Below, piece by piece: positions 1-63,082 of a DNA stretch of 64,000 nt. How positions within the stretch are numbered: position 1 is the stretch's first letter; each line of letters opens with the position of its first letter. Location: NCBI RefSeq assembly GCF_002775205.1, contig NC_036443.1, forward strand, positions 30,009,717-30,073,716, read 5' to 3'. The position numbers were made by a program, and so were the translations under genes. The notes beneath the pieces were generated by a model that saw only the letters and a program-made list of their open reading frames with translations, was not told where the DNA came from and searched no databases. This stretch comes from Xiphophorus maculatus (taxonomy: Eukaryota; Chordata; Actinopteri; Cyprinodontiformes; Poeciliidae).

Positions 1-439
1 TTAGCTTCATAACTGATCAAAACTTGTAGCTGTTAGCATGTGGTTTTGACATTAGTTAGCTTGGTCATTGAACAAAACATATAGCAAATCTCACCAACTT
101 CCTGACTTGCATAAATTCCAGCTGGGTATGATGCTACTAAGATAGCAATGCTACATCTACACACCTACCCAATGTAAGGCTAGCAGGCAGGTTTTGTTCC
201 TGTAATAAAGATTTTGTTGTTGCTCAGATAAAATATCTAAAATTAAATAAAAATTACACCACTAGGAGAATTTTTATAAAAACGATGTAATCCCGTCTTT
301 CCACTCTTATTATCAAATTTTTAATCTAGACTCCGTCAGCACTTCTGACAAGTAAAAAGAAACTTCACCAAATAACATTAGGATTTAATAGAGATGTTTT
401 CAAAGAACCACTGATTATTGTGTGTTTTCTCTTTACTAG

Positions 440-2620
440 TTGTAGAAGATATTTGTGAAGAACCAGAAGTCAATCCAGATCCAGAAGAACCCAAAGGACC
501 TTTAATCCAGAACACAGAACCAGAACTATGTCAGGAGCCGTTAATCCCGGACCGTAACGCTTTGGGAGAACCGGATGAAGAGCCACTTCCACCTCCCATC
601 TCTCCACCAGTGGAACCATTACAGCTTGATGAACTGGGAGCTGACCCAGATCCTGCAGCTCCTGGCCCAGCGGCCGGTTCTTTAGAGTCTGCTGGAGAAC
701 ATTTGCAACCGGAAACTGATGGTCCAGGTTCTGGTGACGTTGGACCGAGTAAGGTTAAGGTGGAGAGAAAGGTGGAGCGGGTTGGGGCCGAGACACAGCA
801 GCCTGTGAGAGAGGAAAACCTCAGGAAAGACCAGGAGGGGATGAACACTCAGCAGGTAGGGCATCAGGTCCGGTTCTGGTATTAGTCTGTAATAGAACCG
901 ACCCGAACCACACCAGTCCTGGTGTAGCTCCTTCAGTCAGAGGTCCGTTGAACAGTGGTTGTGTTTCCATTAAAATGTTTTAAAACGTTGCCAACATTCC
1001 ACTAAAATCGAAAAAACTTAATTTTGCAATTGCGTTTTTTTAAACTAAATAAGAAACAGAATCAAAATCACAGTGGAGTTTGTTCAATAAAAAACACGCC
1101 ACGCCATCATCCTCCTACTATTTCCTGTTGTCCTCTTTGTTGTTTCCTCCAGTAGTAACATCCTGTTGTTGATCATATGACTCTTGTGATGTGAAAAAAA
1201 ACAACCGAAAAAAGCCAAAAATTTATAAAAATACAAGCATTTTGAACTTAAGATGAAAGAAAGAAATCTGTTCTGGCCAGAATTACTCAAGCAGCAGTTT
1301 TAGCTTCACCTGGATCAAATTCTGTAAAAATAAATTTCCTATTAAGCTCCTTTGGCCTTCAAAGTATTTATTGGTGAACCAGAAAAAATAATCACCAGAC
1401 CAGCCCCTACGTTGAGTTGATATTAAGTTTAACTGCCCTCCTTCTGAAGGACAGACGGAGCTTTCCTTCAGGTGACGGAGATCAAAGCTGTTAGCGCAGC
1501 ATTAGCATTAGCGCTGCACTCTGGGAAACCCTGCCAAAGGGTAACATTTCAGAGCAGATGATATGCCACTAGGCCATGGGGGGATTCCCCCTTCAACACA
1601 TCTCGGCTGTTTCTTAAACCTGAATCTGGAGGAACCGTCTTAAAACCTCCAACAACTTCCTGCTCTGTAAACCAGGGATGGAAAAATAATTCTCATTTTG
1701 GCCCAAATCAAATCATGATTTGATCAAACTTCCTAACAAACTGTTAAAATACTAATAAATAGCTGTCTCTGTATTTGATAAGTACTTCTTAAAGATGCAG
1801 TATGATATAAATGATCCAAGATAAATTTCTCCTATGGGAGACTAATAAAATTATCTTATCTTAAAATTGACTCTTTTTTAGCTTTCCATTATGTTTTAAT
1901 GTTTTTCCCTCACCAAAAACAAACCTGGAGTGTTGCTTTGATTCTTTCATTAATAATTGAGAAATCCTTTAATCTCCATGGCAACAATTCAGCTGTGTAA
2001 AATGCCTGGGGGGAACTAGCCCCGCCTTCCAGATGTAGCTCCTCCCCCACAGAGCTCCTTCAGACTAGCTAGAAACAATTAGCAAACACCTGGTGGAACT
2101 GCTGAGCTCATTACTGCTCAGTAAGAAGCTGGTAAAAACGTTAAGTCATATTTGTAACATTTTTGTAACAACTGAAGGGAACATAGTTACTTGATTGTGT
2201 TAAATAAAGTTGTTTTCCCCCTCAAATTGTCAACTTTGCAAACTCAGAAACTTCCTTGTCTTTCTCTAGAAATTTTGAAATTAATTAAAAAATTAATGAA
2301 ATTAATTTTAAAAAGTTTTTCCATGCAAATTTTTAAGCTCAGAAAATTCAGTTTTTCCTATAAATATTTTCAGATTAATCTAAAAATGTCAAGAGGTTTT
2401 TCGCAGAAGTTTATATCTTTCTCTTTTTTTCTATCTATCTACAGTGGCTTCAAACTCGCATCGTCATTATCGTAATTACTCGTTTTGGGGGTGCTGCAGC
2501 TTTGATAACGCTTCCTTCCTGTTGTCCCTCCAGATTGTCACACTGGTCTTCTACCTTTTGGGCTTGCTGGTCATCCTGCTGAGGTTCTGGTCTTACATCG
2601 GCCGTTTTATTTACTTGTGA
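440..2620 (+). CDS. 3' part of an unrecognised gene: acidic/proline-rich region plus C-terminal membrane anchor (partial)
   Basis: Two exons can be supported. The first opens after an acceptor TAG at 437-439 and encodes an acidic, proline-rich stretch dominated by E, P, D and G. A strong donor (GTAAGG) follows position 748, leaving phase 1. The second opens after ACAG at 2441-2444 and runs to TGA at 2618-2620; it takes up phase 1 exactly. It encodes about 57 residues: a short polar lead with a Cys-Cys pair, then roughly 25 hydrophobic residues (about LLSLQIVTLVFYLLGLLVIL), then a short R/W/Y-rich end. That topology suggests a tail-anchored or single-pass membrane protein. The first reading frame also stays open to another donor after 855, but that donor leaves phase 0 and would not join the membrane exon in frame. 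The 5' exons lie outside the window. I do not recognise the family. Confidence 0.55.
958..1300. repeat. GTTTCCATT-family dispersed element, copy 1
   Basis: It begins with the family head (GTTTCCATTAAA) and holds the shared internal module around TTTCCTCCAGTAGTAACATC (1142-1161). The same module recurs near 20340-20600, 61404-61813 and 63083-63460. The other end cannot be recognised here, so this copy is degenerate or truncated. No coding capacity is seen, consistent with a non-autonomous DNA transposon. Confidence 0.45.
1310..2180. other. Intron of the membrane-anchor gene; degenerate repeat matter
   Basis: No exon is supported. Near 1790-1862 there is a tail-like stretch ending in TAATAAAATTATCTTATCTTA, which resembles the A/T-rich 3' end of a fish LINE or SINE. 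The remainder is low-complexity, AT-rich intron sequence. Confidence 0.3.
2225..2400. repeat. CAGAAA/TTTTCTAGAAAATTT/AGATTAATCT degenerate repeat, cluster 1
   Basis: The stretch is built from short variants of 'ACTCAGAAA', 'TTTTTCTAGAAAATTT' and 'AGATTAATCTAAAAA'. The same vocabulary returns at 35520-35960, 37205-37345 and 56330-56775, so it is one dispersed, internally repetitive family. It sits directly upstream of the last exon of the first gene. Confidence 0.45.
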
Positions 2621-5737: not shown

Positions 5738-25230
<19,493 letters not shown>

Positions 25231-29140: not shown

Positions 29141-30521
29141 GGTGAGTTTTTTTTAAGGTCAGAAAATGGTGGAAAGGGCTTCTCTCCCCTCGGCGAGGCG
29201 AGGCGAGCTAACGGCTGGAAGCTAGCGGCTGTACGTCGGTTAAAAATTAGAAACGGATAAAACCGTTTTCTCCCTTTGTCGTTGCGGTACCCGTTGTTGT
29301 TTATTAATAGTTAACGCATTTTTTAAATTGTTTTTTTAACGGTCGTATCACGGTAGGTTGTGTGGTATCAGACGGACAAAATGGTCACCGCAGTTTTTAG
29401 GGTTACTGTTGTTCTGACCCAGAATTTTCACGAAGCAGCAGCTTAATTCAGACCAGCTCCGTGTGTTTCAGTCTAAAACCGGTCACAACCTGCTGTTTTT
29501 TGTTGTTGGTTCAGCATTTGCGTTGAATGTAAAGATGTCGGTTTGGTGCAGTGACTGTTTTTAATGTAAACACCCCCTTCTTCCTCCTCCTCTTCCTCAC
29601 TGCAGAACAGTGACAGAGACGTCATGATGGAAACAATGAAGTTTATGGTGCAGAACCTAAATCTGCTCCTCCACAGCCTGTTCATGTTGTTTTAAACGAT
29701 AAACCCACTGTTTTTAATTTTTGTGTCAAAAGAGATTAAATAGAAAAATCCAGATCAGTTCTGACCGGAGCTCAATGGGTCATTAATGAATAAATGTTCC
29801 CATTGTTCATTAATTGCACCAAACTACAAGAGGTTTTTATTTTAATTTTTATAATGTTATTTGATCCATTTCATTTGACTTCGTTGCCATTATTGTAAAC
29901 CTTTTAGTTGATCAAAATCTAAACTAATCTGAGGTTGGCAGACTTTTTATTTTTAGGAATATGAAACGCAACATGTTTATTTATTTTTGGCCATTTTTAA
30001 TGTTGCTCTACAGAACTAAAAAAAAATTGTATTGTCGCGCATTGTATTGTCTTGTATTAATGTCTTGTCAATGGCAAGAACAAAGTGTGGAGAGAAGAAA
30101 ATAATAATGCATTTTATTTTTCTTTCAAAACAACCCAAGACACTTTGCAACATTTTAAACACAATTATCAGTAAAAAAAAATGGCTATAAAAACACAAAA
30201 CTAACAAAATAACTAAAATGAGAGCAAAAACGTCAAAAGTTTGCAGACGAGCAGCGCAGTAGCATCCACTCGATGTGGACGACAAAATGAATATAATAGC
30301 AGAAGCATCAACAATATAAAAATGGCAGAATCAATAATTTAGTTTTTTTTTTTTTTTTTTTTTTTTTTAAGCGTTTCACAATAAATTACAGTTACAGAGT
30401 TTCTGTCAGCACCTACAAACTTCTGTTATATGGCTCATCTCTATTGAGGCCTCATGTAGTGGAGATGAGTAACCGAGTCTGTTCCTGCTCCAGGTTTCCA
30501 TCAGTGACCAACTCCTGAAGA

Positions 30522-31850
30522 ATGGCAGCCATTCCAGCAGGCGGTTCCCTCGTCGCAACCACCGACTACTACCGAAGTGAGTCCCTCTGTCCGTCCGCCT
30601 CTGCTGACCGTCTCACTGCATGTTTAATCACTAATTAACATTTACCTCCCCTGCAGGGCGCATCGGCTCTACGTCCAGCAGCAGCTCATGCGGCAGTTCG
30701 GAGTACAGTGGGGAGGTCATCCCTCACCATCCAGGTAAACGGCTTCAAATGTGGCTTAAAGCTGCAGGTTAACTTTTATAAAGAATGTTTGTTTTTTATA
30801 TTTGAGTTAACTCACCATGTTGTCACAGAATGAAAAGATCCACCTCCTCCCTGAGCTATAGGAGGAGGGGCTTAGCGCTGTCAATCATCCTCATGTTCTC
30901 ACTGCTAAATATAATGGCAGAGAAAGAACTCAATTGTTACAGGGAGATATGCTAACTAGCCTTAGCATTCACAATAAGAACTGCTAGCTGCAGCTTAGAG
31001 ATCAAGGGGGGAAGAGGGAGATGATTGACAGCGCTAAGGCCCGCCTCCTGGCTCTGGCTGGTTCTAGTTAGCACTTGGAGGAGGAACTCTCTTTCTTTCT
31101 TTTTTTTTTTCTTTCCACATTTTGTCTCGTACTATTCTGTCAAATATACAAAAAAAAGATTTTCTAAAACTTGCATACTGCAGCTTTAAGTTGGTTTTTA
31201 GGCTGGGAAAATAAACACGCCCATAAAGAGTTTTAACTGCAGGGGAGTGACAGACTGTTGCTCAGAGATTTAAACTTTCACCCAGAAACCAACCTGCCCA
31301 CATGTTGGGGTTTCTCTGCTAACATTACATCAGTTAATACTGGTGTTGCCACAGAGGATTGAGTCATTTCTGCTAGGTTGTAATGATGCCAGGAGGTTTT
31401 TCTTAAAGCAGCCGCACCCATCCAGCTCACTTCCTGCTGGTCAGAAACATGCAGCGTACGTTTAGATCCAGAGTCTGAGCAGCAGCAGCTTCCTGAGCTG
31501 CTCAGTCATCCTGACTCGGCTGTAGAGCTCAGCAGCTGGTTACGCCACGTTAAGTGCTGCTCTGTCTCTCCAGGACTCCCTAAGCAGGATTCTGGCCATT
31601 GGTGGTCCAGCTTCTTCTTTGGGAAGCAGCCAGGGATGACGCCGCTTACCGAAGAGGCGCACCAGAAGTAAGTCCGAAGCTGCCTGAGCCGTTCCTGTTT
31701 TATACATTCGTTTTTCTAACCGCCACCTCTGTCAGGGTGGGGGTCTCGGGCGCCGTGACGACCGGTCAGATCACCTGCATCGCCAAGGAGATGGTGCTGC
31801 AGCGGCAGGCGAGCGAGAGCAGCGAGGCAGGAAGCCCCGTCTCCTCGTGA
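30522..31850 (+). CDS. ppdpf: Pancreatic progenitor cell differentiation and proliferation factor
   Basis: Four coding exons, 30522-30576, 30657-30734, 31574-31667 and 31736-31850, join in frame (intron phases 1, 1 and 2) into 113 aa; the human protein is, from memory, 114 aa. Family landmarks are the N-terminus MAAIPAGGSLVATTDYYRRR, a Ser-rich stretch, HHPGLPK, the aromatic GHWWSSFFFGK core, and a C-terminal part with a GQITCIAKE segment. The gene was named for its effect on exocrine pancreas development in zebrafish; the biochemical role is not established (family knowledge). The start codon is 28 bases into its exon. Upstream are a TATA box and CRE. AATAAA signals lie at 31957-31962 and 32160-32165. 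In mammals PPDPF lies next to PTK6, as here. Confidence 0.95.
30756..31190. repeat. ppdpf: Dispersed element with CTTAAAGCTGCAG ends, in ppdpf intron 3
   Basis: It begins TTAAAGCTGCAGGTTAAC and ends ACTTGCATACTGCAGCTTTAAG, imperfect inverted ends. Inside is a GATTGACAGCGCTAAG...CCTCCTGGCTCTG block that recurs at 36465-36500 in another copy. No coding capacity. Confidence 0.55.
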
Positions 31851-35270: not shown

Positions 35271-35519
35271 TAACCTACAGTAAAAAAATATACAATAAAT
35301 TGTTTTTTAAACAGTTTATATGTTTCTGTTGTAAAGGAAAGAAGAGAAAGTTGTTCCTTTAGGTTCTGAAGGTTTAATTAGTGATTAAATTAACTTCTTA
35401 ATCCAGTTTCTCCACTGTTGAGCTTTACAACTTCTGAACCAAATAATGAAACCAGTCAAATTAATCACGATTAATCGATTAATCGCTAACTGGAGTAAAC
35501 AAACTCCAGGAAGTGACAG

Positions 35520-36632: not shown

Positions 36633-37034
36633 TGATGGAAAGACTAAACTGAGATGAAGTTAGCTTCTAACATTATGCTTCATCAATTATGTATATCAGT
36701 GTTTTCCAGCTGATGAATGAAGAGAGCAGTTTAATAAATGAAAATGGAAACTTATAAAGACATTTATGGAACGGGCAGACATATTTAGGGTACAAACATT
36801 CATTCCTTCATTTGCTGCATGTTTTACTTTGGTGAAGCTCGGTGTTTATGTTGCATTAAATTCAAAAGTCCAACTGCTGTTCATGTTTTGAAGGTTGGAC
36901 ACGAAGCATCAGATTTATCTTAAATCAATCAGCGTTAAAAGTCTCAAAGTTTTCCGTGTAAATTCGGTTTTCCTGCGTGTTTGTTGTTTGTCGTGAACTC
37001 CTGGTCAGTTCTTTCAGTCTTTCTTTTGCTTCGT

Positions 37035-38941
37035 CTACTTGACGTGTTGGTCTGCTGGGTTGGCCGGTTTGGTGCTGGGAGAGGACGAGGAACCAAGAGC
37101 GATCTCCATCAGCAACCCTGTGGTTCCCATGGAAACCGGGAGCCCTGCAAACACAGGGAAACATAATTACACCATAAAGTGACTAAAATACCCCCAATAG
37201 GAGCCGTTGTCAAAAAACTCAGAGTCAGTAAAATTATTACTGCATTTTTTTTGTTTAGACTTTTCAAGCTCAGAAATTCTTGTTTTTCTAGAAGATTTCT
37301 GAGATCAACATCTAAATTTACGGGTTTTTTAATGGAAATGTTCTCCTTTCTTCTATCTATAATGGGCCTAGTATATTGTTGTAATATAACAACAGTATTA
37401 CGTTGTTACATTGCGTAATTAAATGCTTGTAGGTGGGATTAAAGTCGGGTTAAAGCAGAAGTGAATGTTTTACCAGGAGGAATTCCCATCCTGATCCAGA
37501 GGAGGATCTGGGTCATGACAGAGTCGTTCTGCTGGGACGTCGGGTTCATCCCGTCTGGGCTTGAGGGAACACCTGGAAATAAATCCGTCCACATTAGCAT
37601 TTAGTTACAAACTCGTTTTACAGTCTCTGTGCCTCCGAGCCCTAAAGTTTCCATCAGTCGTTGCTCTCATGCTCTGCGCCTGTGTGATCACGTGCTGCCG
37701 GAGTGAACGGGCCGTGAACGGGACCAGGGCCAGAACTTTTTTTAATGTCAGCTCGTGTATCAGGCGCTCCCGGCTTGGCTCCCGTGAACCTGTTCATCCC
37801 CAGGCTGAGAGCTCAATCTGCAGGAATCTGCTGAACAAAAGCCTTCGCACCCCGGATCTGCTCCGTGCAGCTTCTGTTTCTGTGTTTCTACGTAAACAGA
37901 GGGAAACATGCCCAAGTTTCCATTTGGGTCACTTCCAGGTCTTTGGTGAATATTCCAGAAGTTCTTGTTTCTCTGTCTCTGCTGGGACATTGTGTGCTGG
38001 TATGGAGTAACTGGGCCTGTATGGTTGAAATGAGCGAAACCAGTTTGGTTTGAAGTTGTTATCTTTAGACCTAAAGAGGAACGATCGAGCCAGCGAACAG
38101 CTTCAGTTATTACAGCTGGAAGCCAGAGATCAGTTAAACCTTTAGTCACATAAAGTCAGTTTCAAAGTCGTTCAGTGGTTCTGGGTGCAGCGCCCCCGCA
38201 GGCCAGGAGGGGAACAGGTTGCTCAAAGGGTTTGACTCAGAGCTGAGAGAAAGAGAACCACAGCAGGTGGAGCAGATGTTACCATTTTAATCCCTGATTG
38301 ATTGGTTACAACAAGCTGTACTGTTGTAACCAATAAGAAACTTTAACTGCAGTAGCCATCGTTCAACCCAAAGAGGGCAGCACTGAGATGGTTTTTGCAC
38401 AAATTGCATAAAAGCATAAAGATAGCAGCATTAATTACCAATTTAGACACTTTACCAAAAACAGTAGATTTGGGTTTTAGTTGCTCTTTAATAAGAAAAG
38501 GTTTATTTCCAGCGTTGATCCAACTTCTGTCTTCCTCTCTGGAAATCAGATCCTGGCTGATGGAGGCCCAGTCACGTCTTTCTTGTGTTTGGATCTGATC
38601 AGTTTTTCTCTTCCTGTTTCTAAATGCTCTGCTTGGATTGTAGAAGTAAAAATGTAAAGTTTTCCACTGGTCCGTCCAGCACTTTAAACCCAAATGAGGT
38701 TGTTTAGTTACTGCCTGCATGTGGGTTCATTGATCAGGAGCAAAGGTTCTGATTTTCTTAACTGAAAGTGGATTTTCCAACCTTTACTCAAGCTTGAAGA
38801 AAGCCAGTGCTCACATGGTGAATATTTATCTTTTGTCTGAATTTAAAGCTTCTGGAAGCCGTGTTTGGGTCTGGGTTTTGTCGTACTTCTGTAGAAGTGG
38901 TTCCGGGCGAGCAGGCAGGCTGGAGAGTTGACGCTGGTCAT
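37035..38941 (-). CDS. Predicted divergent ppdpf-like gene, inverted relative to ppdpf
   Basis: Three minus-strand exons, 38941-38887, 37572-37474 and 37144-37035, join in frame (phase 1, phase 1) to an 87-aa product ending at TAG 37035-37037. Splice sites are good: acceptor TCTTCAG before the start-codon exon (exon begins 38987), donor A|GTACGA, acceptor TTATTTCCAG, donor G|GTAAAA, acceptor TGTTTGCAG. The N-terminus MTSVNSPACLLARNHFYR aligns with ppdpf MAAIPAGGSLVATTDYYR. The first intron breaks both genes in phase 1 just after the YR/FYR. The second is phase 1 inside P-G|L-P in both (HHPGLP, IPPGLP). An in-frame TAG precedes the ATG in the same exon, as expected for a 5' UTR. The aromatic WWSSFFFG core of ppdpf is absent; the tail is Ser/Pro-rich. 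I recall mammalian PPDPFL with a similar CLLARN-x-YR start, unverified. Expression is unknown. Confidence 0.6.
37205..37345. repeat. CAGAAA/TTTTCTAGAAAATTT repeat, small cluster 3
   Basis: GCTCAGAAATTCTTGTTTTTCTAGAAGATTTCTGAGATCAACATCTAAATT is one to two units of the family at 35520-35965. It falls in the second intron of the predicted ppdpf-like gene. Confidence 0.45.
38283..38730. repeat. Dispersed repeat with 'AACTGCAGTAGCCATCGTTCAACCC' block, copy 1
   Basis: ACTGCAGTAGCCATCGTTCAACCCAAAGAGGGCAGCACTGAGA, then ATGACAA-like and AATTTAGACA-TTT-CC blocks match 47310-47485 in order. It lies in the first intron of the predicted ppdpf-like gene. Confidence 0.5.
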
Positions 38942-39244
38942 GATGCTGCAGACATTCGCAGACTGTTGGACCTACCGGGTCAGGACCCTGAAGACGGGGA
39001 GAGACGGAGAGAATGTTGAAGATCAGCAGCATTTACTGCTAATAATGTGGTCGGCATGACAGAGATTATGTTCCTTGGTGTTTCCAAGTCATCTACAGAT
39101 CATCATAGACAAATTAGGAAATACAGCAGTTATATTATTTTATATGTGGTGGCATTCAAAGGGGCGCTGAGTGTCTCTGCTGCCTGCTTCAGCTCGTTCT
39201 GGGCGCATCAAGCATTTCGTTCAGCGGCTGAAAGTACGATGGTC

Positions 39245-48464: not shown

Positions 48465-58230
<9,766 letters not shown>

Positions 58231-58714
58231 CGCTGCCGAGGAAACGGCCTGGAGCCGCTTGGCGCCCCGCGGTGAGCCGCGCCGCTGGATGATCCGCACC
58301 TGACGGACAGGTAAACAGAAACTCCTCGGAATGCGCCGCTGTTCCGGTTTGGTCGGTCCTGAGTGACACTAGCGTGATTCAGAGAACTTCCTTTAAGGGC
58401 AGCATAATAAAACCCCGCCTATGATGACAGGCAGAGTCATAAAGAAGCTGCGACCTTCAAATCAGCAGCAGCTTTTATTTCACTCCGTCCGAAATGTGAT
58501 GCAGTTAATAAGGCAGAGTTAGTTACTATTCATTATTAATGATATATAATCATAACTTATGTTCTTAATAAAATGATTTTCTAAATGTTTGTAAAGATAC
58601 ACTGTTAAAAATGAACAGTTTGGTTTATTTATTCATGAGAGGAGAAAATGTTTATTTTTCACCAAGTTATTCATTTAGTTGTAAATCTCACCGTTTAAAA
58701 AAAAGTCGCTTATC

Positions 58715-62594: not shown

Positions 62595-62794
62595 CTAAAC
62601 CTCCACGGTTTTGTAATAAATGCGTTGATAAATGGCGTCCAGCTGGTTCTGCAGGGCGTGGAACGACGGCCTTTGGGTCGGGTCGGTGTGCCAGCAGTCC
62701 TTCATGATCCGGTAAATATTGGGAGGGCAGCGGTCGGGACAGCCCAGCCGATGCCCCGATTTCAAAATGTCCATCACCTCCTTATTGCTTTTTC
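62595..62794 (-). CDS. srms: Last coding exon of a second Brk/Srms-family tyrosine kinase, probably srms (partial)
   Basis: A 200-base exon opens after TTGTTTAG (acceptor, exon base 62794) and ends at TAG 62595-62597. It encodes the kinase C-lobe end: SNKEVMDILKSGHRLG, a Cys-Pro pair, IYRIMKDCW, RPSFHALQNQLDAI, then YQRIYYKTVEV. It is the counterpart of the last exon of ptk6, with the same phase and the same CW...RP-F pattern. The last helix wording (LDAI) resembles that of SRMS as I recall it, and PTK6-SRMS tandem order is conserved in human, so srms is the best call. FRK is less likely. No upstream exon could be found between 62.8 kb and the window end, so the last intron is at least 1.2 kb. 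Kinase-active residues are not in view. Confidence 0.75.
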
Positions 62795-63082
62795 CTAAAC
62801 AAAGCGAGACATGAAGCGATAACAGATGAGGTTGAAATACATAAACACAGCCATGTCTGGAATAGAAAACATTAAATAACCCAAATTAAAATAAAGTGTT
62901 TTGGTAAAAAAGCTTCAAAAATTACATCATCAGACAGATCGAAATATAAAGTTAATTGGAGATTTGGTATTTTAAAGATCAAAAAATAAATAAATCAAAA
63001 TAAATCAAAGAATTACAAACTGTTGAAATTTTTCTAAATCAATTTCTTTGCATATAAAACGCGTAGAGAGGAGCTCACTAGC

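Follow-up and report, generated by a model that had tools for sequence, protein, structure and literature searches.

A possible PPDPFL-type gene without the family core, tail-to-tail with ppdpf in Xiphophorus maculatus

The PPDPF family and the ppdpf genes of this genome

The described proteins closest to the locus studied here are PPDPF (20q13.33) and PPDPFL (8q11), whose genes lie in paralogous regions originating from the vertebrate genome duplications, with the neighbourhood of PPDPFL on the SNAI2/SNTG1 side. The human PPDPFL (C8orf22) protein that we used as a query is an assumed sequence; it matches the Pfam profile PF15060 with 37.9 bits and is supported because this score exceeds the profile's cut-off of 27. 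Zebrafish exdpf was reported as needed for growth of the exocrine pancreas (PMC2586380), two zebrafish ppdpf paralogues were described with exocrine and endocrine expression (PMC5360028; PMC2586380), and for human PPDPF it was reported that it does not act as a key regulator when the pancreas develops (PMC12037078). A further paper prints the N-terminal peptide of human PPDPF and reports that these first 18 residues include Ser6/Ser7, which bind GTP and are required for SOS1 activation (PMC9839844). The passages and titles surveyed mention no third zebrafish ppdpf paralogue. A title survey of the PPDPFL literature gave nothing concerning fish, a result that does not bear on annotation in fish databases.

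The window, i.e., the whole stretch of 64,000 nucleotides that was analyzed on contig C1 (NC_036443.1), contains, besides ppdpf, a gene of the TPD52 family and parts of SH3 and tyrosine-kinase genes, a gene set which we take to be a PPDPF-type neighbourhood. The window ppdpf (plus strand, 30522-31850) has four coding exons encoding 113 amino acids, and its product matches PF15060 (PPDFL) with 158.5 bits. Coding exon 1 (30522-30576, MAAIPAGGSLVATTDYYR) was recognized by pattern and Pfam, exon 2 (30657-30734, phase 1-1) by splice reading, exon 3 with the GHWWSSFFFGK core (31574-31667) by pattern and Pfam, and exon 4 with the stop codon (31736-31850) by splice reading and Pfam.

Genome searches covered 704 Mb in 101 contigs of this one fish. 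With PF15060, two ppdpf genes were identified, both on contig C1: that of the window and a second one at 25.159 Mb. The only other match was a weak one on C4, in a place which contains three stops. The second ppdpf (C1:25158638-25159031) lies 4.9 Mb from the window ppdpf; its exon 1 (MASIPSSGSLVATHDYYR) and its core and tail exons are readable, and the gene upstream of it reads by eye as dnajc5. Where human PPDPF has the Ser6-Ser7 reported to bind GTP (PMC9839844), the window ppdpf has Ala6-Gly7 and the second ppdpf Ser-Ser; the reported GTP site is not conserved in one of the two fish paralogues.

The candidate gene model and its first exon

An earlier note on this DNA had drawn an inverted ppdpf-like paralogue 5 kb from ppdpf, assembled in frame from three minus-strand exons into 87 amino acids. 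Splicing 38941-38887, 37572-37474 and 37144-37035 reproduced this model exactly, with TAG as the stop codon and the peptide MTSVNSPACLLARNHFYR (exon 1), SVPSSPDGMNPTSQQNDSVMTQILLWIRMGIPP (exon 2) and GLPVSMGTTGLLMEIALGSSSSPSTKPANPADQHVK (exon 3); the candidate and ppdpf are oriented tail-to-tail with 5.2 kb between them. Our leading, still tentative, reading is that the locus is a diverged PPDPFL-type gene of the PPDPF family that encodes a core-less microprotein of 87 amino acids. The observation made in the earlier note is largely right, and the locus is a candidate gene.

Candidate coding exon 1 (38887-38987, minus strand) comprises a 5'UTR of 46 nt, the ATG at 38941 and 18 codons followed by a phase-1 donor at 38886, and was identified by splice scores and PPDPF-family similarity. 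An in-frame TAG (38974-38972) is located between the acceptor of this exon (38987) and the ATG. Exon 2 (37474-37572, minus strand; 99 nt, phase 1-1, GC3 0.73) was obtained by chain scoring, as was a version of it with an alternative acceptor (37554-37474, minus strand), and terminal exon 3 (37035-37144, minus strand; GC3 0.69) holds 36 codons including the split first codon, and then TAG. An ATTAAA poly(A)-type hexamer, recognized by pattern only, is found 3' of the stop on the same strand (36730-36735). C-terminal to the family motif the candidate protein contains a short hydrophobic stretch, ILLWIRMGIPPGLPV.

The organization of the drawn model resembles that of the teleost ppdpf genes (ppdpf/ppdpfa/ppdpfb, exdpf), which also have small exons and a 5'UTR acceptor before the ATG, located at 30494 in the window ppdpf. 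In the drawn model, intron 1 (phase 1, after YR) and intron 2 (phase 1, at PG/LP) have the same places and phase as in the window ppdpf, as stated in the earlier note. The two genes differ in having three (candidate) and four (ppdpf) coding exons, and exon 2 measures 99 nt compared to 78 nt in ppdpf. The likeness to PPDPFL concerns the assumed protein sequence only.

The N-terminal 18 residues were said to fit the ppdpf pattern, and the family N-terminal exon, M-x-x-[IV]-...-[SC]-L-[VL]-A-...-[YF]-Y-R, is indeed present: in all six frames of the window the pattern M..[IV]..[SC]L[VL]A occurs at two places, ppdpf and candidate exon 1. Exon 1 is identical to the assumed human PPDPFL at 12 of 18 residues, including CLLARN and YR, and to the adjacent ppdpf at 5 of 18. 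The peptide CLLARNHFYR was not found in the literature text searched. Among the 46,141 open 18-mers of the window, the candidate ranked first against the assumed PPDPFL (score 59, z 9.0; ppdpf 49, next 36), and it ranked second, after ppdpf itself, against both the window ppdpf (27; next 18-mer 25) and human PPDPF (32; next 18-mer 26). The candidate score was reached by none of 300,000 shuffles against PPDPFL, by 32 against ppdpf and by 23 against human PPDPF. Of the 45 18-mers that start with M and have a phase-1 GT directly after them, two, ppdpf and the candidate, exceeded a score of 15 with at least one of the three queries; the other 43 did so with none.

Chimeric proteins were also scored. 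Placing candidate exon 1 on ppdpf exons 2-3 raised the PF15060 score from 100.2 to 117.9 bits (+17.7) and extended the match to profile position 1, compared to 103.7 bits (+3.5) for one shuffled exon 1 and 140.7 bits for native ppdpf. Before exons 2-3 of the assumed PPDPFL sequence it raised the score from 15.9 to 26.3 bits (native 37.9; 49.0 with ppdpf exon 1 in that position). With its strong acceptor, in-frame stop, phase-1 donor and family similarity, candidate exon 1 very probably represents the first exon of a PPDPF-family gene, and the residues that it seems to have kept since an ancient split would point to past selection.

Two other explanations of exon 1 fare poorly. That its likeness is coincidental, with nothing at this locus, might be argued from the score against ppdpf alone, which barely exceeds that of the best random 18-mers; the score against the assumed PPDPFL exceeds that of any unrelated 18-mer by a wide margin, however, and only ppdpf and the candidate stand out among the 45 M-starting 18-mers, and we regard coincidence as very improbable. 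The earlier note had left the choice between a tandem-inverted duplicate and a relative of PPDPFL. A fast-diverging inverted duplicate of the adjacent ppdpf would fit the adjacency, the opposite orientation and the common intron phases, but it is at odds with the 5 of 18 identities to ppdpf as against 12 of 18 to the assumed human PPDPFL, and we regard it, too, as very improbable. Because of these identities, the first rank among all open 18-mers and the absence of equal scores among the PPDPFL shuffles, a PPDPFL relative is the better fit, and this half of the proposal is retained.

The splice sites, described in the earlier note as good, are of uneven quality. Ranked among the AGs of the window, the acceptor at 38987 is within the top 0.1% and that at 37144 within the top 0.2%, but both donors and the exon-2 acceptor are mediocre: the exon-1 donor GTACGA (38886) is only in the top 9.3% of GTs, the exon-2 donor (37473) in the top 6.6%, and the exon-2 acceptor (37572) in the top 9.1%. 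All seven scored ppdpf splice sites outscore these three sites, type by type. With stricter splice cut-offs, zero internal phase-1/phase-1 exons were listed.

Coding character and homology of exons 2 and 3

The whole candidate protein gave no PPDFL match in Pfam even at E 10, compared to 158.5 bits for the window ppdpf; it does not reach the PF15060 gathering score of 27 bits and by this whole-protein test does not belong to the family. Even exon 1 of PPDPFL itself (assumed sequence) placed before candidate exons 2-3 gave only 15.3 bits, and the Pfam failure therefore sits in exons 2-3. Gapped comparisons of exons 2-3 with ppdpf, the second ppdpf and PPDPFL were within the range of shuffles, the lowest being 563 of 4000, and in the control comparison of ppdpf with PPDPFL the score was reached by none of 2000 shuffles. 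Homology of these exons to the family found no support in these tests.

Ten single-exon comparisons with the family were made, and the lowest value (132 of 5000 shuffles) was obtained for candidate exon 3 with ppdpf exon 4 (VS..TTG..IA). This equivalence was rejected: with dearer gaps and all of ppdpf exons 2-4 as target the score was reached by 835 of 4000 shuffles, there was no Pfam gain, and the intron phases differ (2 vs 1). An alignment hint that exon 2 corresponds to family exons 2 and 3 after intron loss was also rejected, since 773 of 5000 shuffles reached the score of its comparison with ppdpf exon 3. Exon 3 added as the C-terminus of a chimera gave no gain (140.6 vs 140.7 bits); replacing ppdpf exon 3 it gave 4.3 bits more, a gain which is confined to its first residues and stands without a shuffled control. 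Chimeras and shuffle comparisons found no counterpart of the serine-rich family exon 2 or of the conserved C-terminus in the candidate.

The WW-SSFFFG core, which had been noted as missing, was not found in the candidate exons or on the minus strand of 33.0-38.9 kb. The best core-like score in the latter region was 24, with chance matches elsewhere in the window, ppdpf apart, scoring up to 27; a core-like match at 35378 is AT-rich, is not preceded by GLP and was rejected. The candidate thus differs from ppdpf in having neither the GHWWSSFFFGK core nor the TCIAKEMV tail, and from PPDPFL in that neither the WWFKSFF core nor the serine-rich middle of that protein is matched.

The GC content of the candidate at codon positions 1/2/3 (0.50/0.51/0.74) compares with 0.56/0.42/0.74 for the other exons used (694 codons). 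Synonymous bias as strong as that of exons 1, 2 and 3 was found in fractions of 0.009, 0.024 and 0.056 of open segments, and in fractions of 0.043, 0.078 and 0.25 when the segments were matched for GC; the bias of exons 2 and 3 is not significant once GC is matched.

A small chain scorer ranked the model of the earlier note second of 190 (28.9), after its version with the 37554 acceptor for exon 2 (30.8). The highest score of any other structure was 20.6, and exon 1 joined directly to exon 3, which is in frame too, scored 15.3. With genes left in, 33% of 600 random anchors reached 28.9, mostly via real genes or their antisense. In a stricter control (3000 anchors, gene-overlapping exons excluded, all carry lengths), seven chains at no more than six separate sites reached 28.0 in 64 kb. 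The highest was a CA-microsatellite chain (36.0; another version 29.4), and the candidate with exon 2 at 37554 scored 31.0; the others scored 30.3, 28.7, 28.6 (sharing candidate exon 3) and 28.2. The exact chain of the earlier note scored 28.7 in this control and was equalled or exceeded by non-genic chains of 36.0, 30.3, 29.4 and 28.7. When only one-base carries were allowed, none of 2000 anchors reached 30.7; a two-base carry admits the CA-repeat chain at 35.4. Among the chains that are neither repeat nor genic, the highest-scoring one in the 64 kb is located just 3' of exon 1, yet such chains are not rare. Exons 2-3 are moderately gene-like.

These results bear on the main rival explanation, in which exon 1 is a surviving, perhaps recently freed, PPDPFL-type exon, the rest of the gene has been deleted or has decayed, and exons 2-3 are chance open segments. 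Such a relic would account for family similarity being confined to exon 1, for the weak donors and the core not being found, for codon bias in exons 2-3 that is not significant after GC matching, and for comparable chain scores at a few other non-genic sites in the window. Against it, exon 1 is intact in its ATG, phase, acceptor and identities with the assumed human PPDPFL, which would be unexpected for a long-dead exon. In addition, few AGs (0.2%) score as well as the exon-3 acceptor, and among non-genic sites the chain takes second place. We consider a relic possible, if rather unlikely.

A real PPDPFL-type gene may also have true downstream exons other than those drawn, with a different acceptor or donor, a last exon that is read in another frame, or a core exon altered beyond recognition in this analysis. 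The use of the 37554 acceptor in the top chain would fit this, as would loose W-containing stretches in other frames of exon 3 (DRSWFLVLS and C-stop-WRSLLVPR), which were rejected as core remnants, being at chance level or unscored. The chance-level score of the best core-like match and the large drop from the top chain to the next different one speak against it, and we think such a gene unlikely.

Origin of the locus, genome-wide searches and neighbouring features

In the reading that we tentatively prefer, a diverged PPDPFL-type gene, the candidate would retain the N-terminal exon conserved in the family together with the intron in its 5'UTR and the introns of phase 1, and would have lost the aromatic WW-SSFFFG core and the family C-terminus. 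If transcribed and spliced as drawn, its product would consist of the N-terminal family motif followed by the new hydrophobic stretch. The GTP/SOS1 activity cannot be assumed for the candidate because it has Ser6 but Pro7. As a speculative guess, the N-terminal motif alone could bind partners as a module and so mimic full-length Ppdpf, compete with it, or have a tethering role. If real, the gene would be a hidden extra member of a small gene family and would have to be reckoned with in fish knockdowns, and a core-less paralogue would offer a natural test of the N-terminal motif on its own; a relic would represent ordinary gene loss.

If the two human regions are paralogous, then a PPDPFL-like exon in a PPDPF neighbourhood would imply either that an old local pair existed and members of it were lost later, or that 18 residues have converged. 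PPDPF and PPDPFL types might thus derive from a convergent pair of adjacent genes that predates the genome duplications of vertebrates. Tetrapods would have kept one of each on different chromosomes, and this fish would have kept the two together, its PPDPFL partner being a core-less microprotein that regulates the pathway of its neighbour. We hold this scenario to be doubtful; an alignment of 18 residues to one assumed sequence is too little to support it.

At E values up to 0.001, the candidate protein found only its own three exons in the genome. The assumed human PPDPFL as a query for a second PPDPFL gave one place genome-wide (C7, E 0.34), which reads as unrelated; this proves little, because the same query missed the candidate's own exon 1. 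The genome pattern WWF-x-[ST]-FF occurred at 19 places, compared to 21 in the reversed control, and none of 12 inspected places follows GLP. The 40 kb surrounding the second ppdpf contain no exon 1 of the candidate type that starts with Met; apart from ppdpf, the best 18-mer there had a score of 34 with the candidate as query (at 25155030) and of 30 with PPDPFL (at 25174677). Both lack an initial Met and were taken as chance. Pattern matches in viral contigs (14 for the candidate, 28 for ppdpf) and prokaryote genomes (111 for the candidate) gave no confirmed relatives, as expected for a vertebrate gene.

DNA searches identified a dispersed repeat of about 100 bp in candidate intron 1 (38168-38272) and a dispersed AT-rich repeat in intron 2 (37237-37386). 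A search with the 2 kb surrounding the former gave 2083 first-look candidates; the places listed besides the query itself number 42, have 77-93% identity and are all matches to the repeat. Among the matches listed (40 of 2083 and 40 of 186 first-look candidates scored), none besides the self match touches the candidate exons. Just upstream of the candidate, the observed/expected ratio of CpG is 0.69-0.94 at 39.0-40.5 kb, part of which is a tandem repeat; it is 0.22-0.57 at 40.5-44.0 kb and again 0.91 at 45.0-45.5 kb. This profile is weakly compatible with a promoter.

Elsewhere in the window, a stretch that by eye resembles a Gypsy-type reverse-transcriptase fragment lies in two frames (10904-11649, minus strand); its part 10907-11335 has no Pfam match at E 0.1. 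An acidic, proline-rich open frame of 155 amino acids (418-882, plus strand), also without a Pfam match at E 0.1, may belong as an exon to a gene whose start lies beyond the window. The minus-strand exons at 48465-58300 and 62598-62885 encode SH3, SH2-like and tyrosine-kinase domains, with Pfam matches for SH3 and kinase and SH2 recognized by eye; we take them to be PTK6/SRMS-type genes, possibly in tandem.
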